DNA of 64,000 nucleotides from Clostridia bacterium (lineage in GTDB: Bacteria; Bacillota; Clostridia; Oscillospirales; Acutalibacteraceae): positions 1 to 64,000 of the forward strand of contig JAFXBF010000021.1 in NCBI GenBank assembly GCA_017516745.1, written 5' to 3'. Made by a program: the position numbers and the translations under genes. How positions within the stretch are numbered: position 1 is the first letter of the stretch; every line of letters begins with the position of its first letter. The notes beneath the pieces were generated by a model, which did not search any database, was not told where the DNA came from, and worked only from the letters and a program-made list of their open reading frames with translations. Below are positions 4,665 through 6,117 of the stretch, one piece after another.

Positions 4665-5420
4665 ATGGATAAGAATTTAAAGGCTCTTGTGGCAGATAAT
4701 TCCGAGGCTTTCGGCAAACCCTGCGCAAAATCAATGCAGGCAAACGGTATTGATGCCCAATGTGTCGAAAAGGACGGCAGAAAGCTCATTGATGCCGTAA
4801 TAAGACAAAACCCCGACATTGTTGTAATGGAGGTGTTTATGCCCAATCTCGATGCAATAGGCGTTATCAGAAGCCTTCGTGCAGCAGGTCTTGCAAATCA
4901 GCCTAAATATATTGTTGTATCGGGCTTTGATAACCCGACACTTGAAAGCGAGGTTATGTCGGCAGGCACGGATTATTATTTCCTGCGTCCCTTTGATTTT
5001 GGTGAAATGGCAAAGCGTATCAGCAACTTAAGTATAGGCACAGCCAAAACCGAAGAAAACATTGCCGCAAGTCTTGAAATGCAGGTTACACAGACACTTC
5101 ACAGAATAGGCGTACCTGCACATATCAAGGGCTATCAGTACCTTCGTGAAGCAATACTTATGGCAATTAACGACGAGGAAAGCATCAACGCTGTCACAAA
5201 GCTTCTCTATCCTGGTGTCGCCAAAAAATATGCCACAACATCTTCAAGGGTCGAAAGAGCCATCCGTCACGCTATCGAAGTTGCGTGGGACAGGGGAGAC
5301 GTCGATGTGCTCAATTCCTATTTTGGCTACACCATCCAGTCCTCACGGGGTAAGCCCACAAACTCGGAATTTGTCGCAATGATAGCCGATAAATTCAGAC
5401 TTCAGCTTAAAGCGGGTTAA
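4665..5420 (+). CDS. Sporulation transcription factor Spo0A with a degenerate receiver domain
   Basis: A 251-residue response regulator. Residues about 5-125 form the receiver. Residues 138-251 are an excellent match to the Spo0A DNA-binding domain ([53 protein letters not shown]). Spo0A is the master switch for endospore formation. The receiver is altered: in an ungapped alignment with Bacillus Spo0A, the phosphoacceptor Asp56 is Glu56 (GAG at 4830-4832, in VVMEVFMP), the second acidic-pocket Asp is Asn12, and the conserved Lys is Arg108 (FLRPFD). Ser86 keeps the Thr/Ser switch position. Start ATG follows AGAAAGGA. The usual neighbour spoIVB is absent; trmO is upstream and a LytTR regulator ends 1 bp away on the other strand. 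Sporulation identity is firm; normal phosphorelay control is doubtful. Confidence 0.92.
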
Positions 5421-5421
5421 T

Positions 5422-6117
5422 CTATTTCAAAAATCTGTAGTAAATATCCTTGATTTCTTTTAGGTTTTTCTGTCTTATCAGCACGGTTTCACCGTTGTCT
5501 GTGCGGAAGCTTTTGTCTGCGTAAACAATGTGGTTCATATTGATAAGATAGCTCTGGTGGCAGCGCAGAAAGCGGCTGTCGCAAAGCTCATCCTCAATAT
5601 CGCACAGGCGTTTGTAAACCGTGTGGGTATCGCCCGAAGTGCAATGCAGCAGGCATTTCGAATTACAGCTTTCCACAAATATAATATTGTTGTAATCGAT
5701 GTTGATTATTTCGCCACGGTGCCGCAGGTGATACACCTCTGCGTCAAAATCTTCAAGCAGCTCGTTTGTTATTTTCTCAATTTTTTCAAAGGTGACGGGT
5801 TTGAGGATGTATCCCGAAGCTTTAACCTCGTAGCTTTCAACGGCAAAGCCCGATGTGGCAGTCATAAAAATGATTTTTCCGTTGTAACCGCTTGCACGAA
5901 GCCGCCGTGCAACCTCCATTCCCATCATTTTGTCCATATAAATATCCAGAAAAACAGCATCGAATATTTTGCCGTCCTGCGCTTCATACAACAGGTCAAT
6001 GCCGTTGGAAAAGCAGGTTATACCGCCGCCTGAATTGCTCATTCTTAAACACTGTCTGAGCATTTGTGCGGCGGTGTTTCTGTCTATCAAGTCGTCATCA
6101 CATACCGCTATTTCCAT
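5422..6117 (-). CDS. LytTR-family response regulator (AgrA-like)
   Basis: A 231-residue response regulator. The receiver has an intact acidic pocket (CDDD, residues 6-9), phosphoacceptor Asp58 (VFLDIYMD) and the KPV lysine. The C-terminal LytTR DNA-binding domain spans about 130-231 (HRGEIINIDYNNIIFVES, then FLRCHQSYLINMNHI). Such proteins bind paired direct repeats and commonly control peptide signalling, bacteriocins or virulence. A strong GAGGTGGG ribosome binding site precedes the ATG. No histidine kinase or peptide gene lies nearby, so it is an orphan here. Its stop codon lies 1 bp from the spo0A stop on the opposite strand, leaving no room for a terminator. Confidence 0.88.
   Translation of the reverse strand: MEIAVCDDDLIDRNTAAQMLRQCLRMSNSGGGITCFSNGIDLLYEAQDGKIFDAVFLDIYMDKMMGMEVARRLRASGYNGKIIFMTATSGFAVESYEVKASGYILKPVTFEKIEKITNELLEDFDAEVYHLRHRGEIINIDYNNIIFVESCNSKCLLHCTSGDTHTVYKRLCDIEDELCDSRFLRCHQSYLINMNHIVYADKSFRTDNGETVLIRQKNLKEIKDIYYRFLK

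Follow-up and report, generated by a model that had tools for sequence, protein, structure and literature searches.

A Spo0A without its phosphoacceptor aspartate, probably functional, and the repeated loss of this residue in related Clostridia

The spo0A gene found at positions 4665 to 5420 of the forward strand of the window, the 64,000-nucleotide stretch of DNA analysed here, codes for an aspartate-less variant of 251 amino acids that we consider reasonably likely to be functional. Its receiver would serve for dimerisation and regulation with no phosphate involved, the protein would bind DNA in its unmodified state, and entry into sporulation would depend on the amount of Spo0A, or on a protein or ligand acting on the receiver, and not on the level of phosphate. 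In favour of this reading we counted the change of three of the five key receiver residues, the single Spo0A_C match in the genome, the occurrence of the same residues in two sister genomes (G002 and G006), low dN/dS values, the presence of spore genes, the retention of SpoIVA in genomes without Asp56, the stepwise order of the changes on a supported tree, and the kept switch residues Ser86 and Tyr105. Against it we counted a phenylalanine at residue 110, the lack of an excess of 0A-box-like sites, a median receiver dN/dS of 0.183 versus 0.145 in a wider set of pairs, and the absence of preferential conservation of alpha4, beta5 and alpha5 in the pooled set of proteins that have lost Asp56. 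The purifying selection acting on the altered receiver argues that it still does something and, together with the retention of the coupling residues Ser86 and Tyr105, favours a phosphate-free module. What the initial annotation had noticed as a change in one gene is part of a lineage-wide, repeated loss.

The translated open reading frame matches the NCBIfam equivalog model of Spo0A (TIGR02875) with 265.5 bits, above its cut-off of 200, and comprises a receiver domain at residues 8–119 (positions 4686 to 5021, forward strand; Pfam Response_reg, PF00072, with a weaker score of 42.2 bits) followed by a Spo0A_C DNA-binding domain at residues 141–243 (positions 5085 to 5393, forward strand; PF08769, 157.4 bits). 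Alignment to a Spo0A receiver structure (chain 9phz_E) identifies residue 12 as the second member of the acidic pair, residue 56 as the phosphoacceptor aspartate and residue 108 as the conserved lysine. These positions are occupied, respectively, by Asn (AAT, 4698 to 4700), Glu (GAG, 4830 to 4832) and Arg (CGT, 4986 to 4988), as the initial annotation had stated, whereas Asp11 and the conserved switch residue Ser86 (TCG, 4920 to 4922) are as usual, so that three of the five key residues are indeed altered. The full set required for phosphorylation (acidic pair, Asp56, Thr/Ser and Lys) is thus missing, and from known receiver chemistry ordinary switching by a histidine kinase at residue 56 should be impossible. 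We accordingly class the domain as a pseudo-receiver, following the definition given in PMC12632262, and regard the protein as a Spo0A homologue but not as a phosphorylation-switched Spo0A. Both coupling residues, Ser86 and Tyr105, are retained, and the position two residues after the conserved lysine (K+2) is Phe110. The DNA-binding domain, which had been described as fully conserved, comes close to that description: residues 136–250 match the structures 1LQ1 and 1FC3 end to end, a 15-residue segment is identical in both, and the conserved recognition segment is present. Tail to tail with spo0A, one base away on the reverse strand (positions 5422 to 6117), lies a gene for a LytTR-type response regulator whose receiver, unlike that of Spo0A, has the usual aspartate (VFLDIYMD) and a KP motif.

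A sequencing error at codon 56 is very unlikely, since Glu56 occurs together with Asn12 and Arg108 in G002 and G006 as well, at a receiver dS of about 0.6–0.7. This contradicts an original aspartate at this codon, one of the two findings named beforehand as able to overturn the initial interpretation. A profile search of the window genome (G000; 2.89 Mb in 28 contigs, 97.16% complete) yielded no second Spo0A_C match and therefore no second canonical Spo0A, the other such finding; the 97% completeness leaves small room for one. The absence of the phosphoacceptor, the sole Spo0A_C match and the strong purifying selection together make an unusual sporulation switch likely, as had been proposed. 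The accompanying idea that the protein is active by default because its glutamate mimics phosphorylated aspartate is unsupported as stated, in view of the other residues, Asn, Pro, Trp and Ser, found at position 56 in related lineages.

These residues were seen in a survey of the family based on 296 genomes, each at least 90% complete and drawn evenly, among which Spo0A_C was found in 267 and SpoIVA in 268 (260 over its cut-off). Among the best-scoring 150 of the 267 Spo0A_C proteins (L011 and L126–L142 being left out of the counts), residue 56 is Asp in 125, Glu in 12, Asn in five, Pro in four, Trp in two and Ser in one, and is missing in one. In the same best-scoring 150 of 267, 93 proteins have Lys108 and 131 have Ser or Thr at position 86; position 11 is acidic in 99 and position 12 in 116. 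The complete set of five, allowing Asp or Glu in the acidic pair, is found in 54. Lys108 is gone throughout one clade of 27 rows (support 90, quick tree). The tryptophan at the phosphoacceptor position (L192 and L198) is the sole residue seen here at position 56 that was not found by the 2015 survey of aspartate-less receivers (PMC4395418).

This variety bears on the constitutive phosphomimic, a special case of the explanation that we prefer, in which Glu56, probably with Arg108 and Ser86, would hold the receiver in its active shape and leave control to the amount of protein. Glutamate is the commonest replacement both here, in 12 of the 24 proteins without Asp56 among the best 150 of the 267, and in aspartate-less receivers generally, at 26%, and the glutamate-bearing ChxR is phosphate-independent (both PMC4395418). 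Nevertheless, a pure mimic does not predict Asn, Pro, Trp and Ser at the same position, the exchange of Asp for Glu alone has been reported as insufficient to render Spo0A constitutive (PMC4395418), phenylalanine at K+2, as in the window protein, biases CheY toward inactive conformations (PMC12632262), and Asn12 should weaken metal binding. We therefore hold such a mimic to be rather unlikely.

The phosphate-free Spo0A that we favour is carried by a genome in which the sporulation programme is present from stage II to a small acid-soluble spore protein (SASP). Open frames were found for spoIIAA, spoIIAB, sigF, spoIIE, sigG, spoIIGA, sigE, a sigK-like gene and spoIVA, and spoIIIAA, AB, AC, AE, AF and AG are clustered together; spoIIIAD was not identified in this cluster, and the frame at the position of AH has no family match. 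The SASP gene has a Pfam but no NCBIfam match, and several spore proteins (for example SpoIIAA, SigF, SpoIIE, SpoIIGA and SpoIIIAE) score below their NCBIfam cut-offs, which indicates that these proteins are divergent. Across the genus, SpoIVA was found in 11 of 11 genomes, SASP and Spo0A in 10 of 11 each, and SpoIIIAE in nine of 11, in none of them over its cut-off.

Spo0A might nonetheless have been repurposed to control growth phase, metabolism or the cell envelope, with another regulator starting the sporulation genes. We scanned the 300 bp upstream of three of these genes, with at most one mismatch and no canonical relative as control, for TGTCGAA, which we take to be the 0A-box consensus, and found no excess of such sites, with one upstream of spoIIAA and none upstream of spoIIE and spoIIGA against expectations of 0.79, 0.79 and 0.85, respectively; direct control of these genes by Spo0A is thus left without support from the motif. 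The neighbourhood of spo0A was compared using a motif that we presume to mark a SpoIVB-like neighbour. It occurs within 3 kb upstream of spo0A in 23 of the 70 named loci, out of 80, that had enough upstream DNA (ten were too short), and is absent upstream of spo0A in L012, the nearest named relative of the window. The lack of a spoIVB-like gene beside spo0A in the lineage of the window would be in line with a new role, but none lies beside it in 47 of the 70 testable loci either, and across these 70 the state of the receiver has no clear link with such a neighbour. Since, moreover, the defining Spo0A regions of the DNA-binding domain show no variation, and Spo0A and SpoIVA co-occur across the 296 family genomes (present in 267 and 268, respectively), we judge this change of role unlikely.

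Other upstream elements are conserved. GACA elements precede spoIIAA in nine of nine genomes of the genus, together with TTTT and CTCTAT-like blocks (L254, upstream of 2788), and a pair of GACA elements is conserved upstream of spoIIE in three of three genomes, even though the SpoIIE of one of them (G001) is just 43% identical (L253, upstream of 662). They are at most putative Spo0A binding sites.

How the receiver of the window came to its present state, and what has happened to it since, can be followed within the genus. The closest named relative is a metagenome-assembled genome from goat colon, "Clostridia bacterium RGIG2072" (L012), whose Spo0A is 98% identical; its genome (G011) is probably the same as G002, as suggested by identical SpoIVA coordinates. 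The names given to related loci suggest a place for the window organism among Oscillospiraceae- or Ruminococcaceae-like Clostridia. Among the 10 Spo0As of the genus, Glu56 is found in three (G000, G002 and G006) and Arg108 in eight. In a careful tree of 36 rows built with the active-site columns left out, one clade (support 100/99) comprises 26 rows, of which 24 lack an acid at position 12; the other two, L361 and L364, are nested within it, possess the acid and require either one regain or a second loss. Arg108 marks a genus clade of eight rows (100/98), and Glu56 a clade of three rows nested in it (100/100). The likely order of change was therefore the second acid, then Lys to Arg, and finally Asp to Glu, an order which suggests that control by phosphorylation was already weaker before the aspartate went.

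Compared across the three Glu56 genomes, the receiver yields dN/dS values of 0.011, 0.028 and 0.025, at dS of 0.61–0.72, which indicates that it has been tightly constrained after the loss of the aspartate, and the DNA-binding domain shows no nonsynonymous difference at all (dN 0, dS 0.45–1.2). The same genomes give 0.035–0.045 for spoIVA and 0.029–0.046 for sigF; the sigG values of the pairs G000–G003 and G003–G010, with dN near 3 and stretches out of frame, were excluded. In a wider set of pairs, some of which share sequences or duplicate genomes, the median receiver dN/dS was 0.183 where Asp56 is lost (30 pairs), 0.145 where the receiver is intact (18 pairs), 0.142 where Asp56 and the lysine are kept and an acid is lost (33 pairs), and 0.076 where Asp56 is kept and the lysine is absent or, in some pairs, Arg (10 pairs). 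With element limits drawn on the alignment and not on a structure, alpha4, beta5 and alpha5 are relatively conserved in the clade of the window, at 1.17, 1.54 and 1.08 of the receiver mean, and not preferentially so in the pooled set of proteins that have lost Asp56 (0.75, 0.98 and 0.99).

These values bear on the view that Spo0A is vestigial here, sporulation being on its way out, the receiver decaying and the DNA-binding domain lagging behind. Several observations would fit it: Oscillibacter valericigenes was not seen to form spores although it has Spo0A and the full set of sporulation sigma factors (PMC3558957), SpoIID and SpoIIB are reported as missing from a related cluster (PMC7924749), many sporulation proteins of the window genome fall under their NCBIfam cut-offs, and the median receiver dN/dS over all pairs that lost Asp56 is slightly raised. 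However, the selection on the receiver after the loss, the unchanged DNA-binding domain and the equal constraint on spoIVA and sigF rule out the decay of an unused gene for the Glu56 clade, although not for every lineage that lost Asp56. SpoIVA is also kept in all 24 family genomes without Asp56 (among the best 150 of 267), and SASP in 10 of the 11 genomes of the genus, so that we consider a vestigial Spo0A very unlikely. Highly improbable, lastly, is phosphorylation at another receiver residue or by another class of enzyme, for which Ser86, Tyr105 and Asp11 are available but in which Asn12 and Arg108 would be expected to hamper ordinary aspartyl phosphotransfer.

The loss of the phosphoacceptor is not confined to the family. 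Among the best 80 named loci by similarity to the window protein, residue 56 is Asp in 68, Glu in 10 and Asn in one, the stretch being missing in one; the loci with Glu56 include those of Pseudoflavonifractor capillosus An827 (L090) and of Clostridiales bacterium CCNA10 (L084), the latter a complete genome. Relatives of P. capillosus, with 29 Spo0As, have Asp56 in 12, Glu in 13, Asn in three and Ser in one. All 29 further genome entries without Asp56 have a SpoIVA match, 27 of them over the cut-off, with G011, that is, G002 again, among them. By contrast, a control sample from other orders of the same class, made of the 28 best-scoring Spo0As of 52 matching genomes, was intact in 27 of 28, the exception (L301) having His12 and Glu56. 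Counted as losses and regains together, on Spo0A trees and not species trees, and with L001 (same as the window) left out, changes of residue 56 between Asp and not-Asp numbered 27 on a 258-row FastTree and 26 on a quick 208-row IQ-TREE, in both cases with the row carrying a gap counted as not-Asp (25 without that row on the latter). Collapsing branches with support below 80, 90 and 95 reduced the count to 21, 19 and 13, respectively, a tree of 298 rows gave 26, and Lys108 changed seven to 12 times. A large group of gut Clostridia, namely the family of the window and the relatives of Pseudoflavonifractor, may thus have repeatedly dropped the phosphorylation trigger, taken amount or partners as inputs and kept the spore programme, a generalisation that we put forward tentatively and with some doubt.

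The window protein can be set beside several known systems. With the canonical Spo0A of Bacillus and Clostridium (TIGR02875) it shares the two domains, the conserved C-terminal DNA-binding domain and the position of sole Spo0A beside sporulation genes, but it lacks the phosphoacceptor aspartate and the second acid of the pair and has Arg for Lys. With aspartate-less or pseudo-receivers such as ChxR, HP1043, FrzS and RitR it shares the missing aspartate and the retained Ser and Tyr (PMC4395418, PMC12632262); in such receivers the coupling positions tend to retain their Ser/Thr and Tyr/Phe (PMC4395418), and Asn at the second acidic position, Glu at the aspartate and Arg at the lysine are all named as common replacements there. 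Unlike them, its effector is Spo0A_C, in a master regulator of sporulation. The Spo0As of other genera of the family and of the P. capillosus relatives have likewise repeatedly lost Asp56, the second acid or Lys108 while keeping SpoIVA, although in different combinations, for example Gln108 together with Trp56 or Pro56, or Glu56 beside an unchanged Lys108.

In spore formers the trigger of endospore formation has been described as the phosphorylation of Spo0A at the conserved aspartate (PMC11210211, PMC3533761). The Ruminococcaceae have been described as lacking a phosphorelay (PMC11210211), and surveys take a spo0A gene as an indicator of sporulation (PMC8340488, PMC11536998). Aspartate-less receivers are already known, and their control has been named an open question (PMC12632262), but in the Spo0A of these bacteria they are apparently unreported in the open-licence literature: the excerpts of PMC4395418 and PMC12632262 do not describe a natural aspartate-less Spo0A, and our search of open-licence PubMed Central, a collection outside of which subscription papers and most of bioRxiv lie, found no report of one without phosphoacceptor in this group. 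If our preferred reading holds, these lineages would represent a natural experiment in the rewiring of a master developmental switch with the protein and the spore genes kept under selection, and genome surveys that equate spo0A with ordinary control of sporulation would miss a phosphate-free switch. It also touches on the puzzle of gut Clostridia that possess spore genes and are seldom seen sporulating, such as Oscillibacter valericigenes (PMC3558957), and, since the loss has recurred, the control of aspartate-less receivers could be studied in many independent lines.

Some of the genomes surveyed contain further Spo0A-like frames. Among the 11 named-locus genomes without Asp56, one (G020) has two further short frames, another (G017) a weak match that stays under the cut-off, and a third (G016) an additional full-length Spo0A-like protein whose receiver is intact. 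This last protein (L139), of 281 amino acids, has the acidic pair, aspartate and lysine in place and a divergent C-terminal domain, whereas the other Spo0A of that genome carries Glu56; it may be a paralogue or contamination. In Eubacterium coprostanoligenes ATCC 51222 (L037) the open frame, with 177 residues aligned, contains the DNA-binding domain but just the latter portion of the receiver, while a tblastn match extends over residues 1–248; either the frame is interrupted or it begins at another start. Two Anaerotruncus proteins (L025 and L027) keep Asp56 but have Met for Lys108 and a changed acidic pair. Finally, one relative of P. capillosus (G380) has 18 Spo0A_C matches, among which six short frames of identical or near-identical score (five of 119 amino acids and one of 92) each lie near a frame of 267 amino acids that has a weak Spo0A_C match. 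These repeats look like an element, possibly mobile, that codes for a receiver-less Spo0A_C protein, and one to three short Spo0A_C frames of the same kind are found in several relatives.
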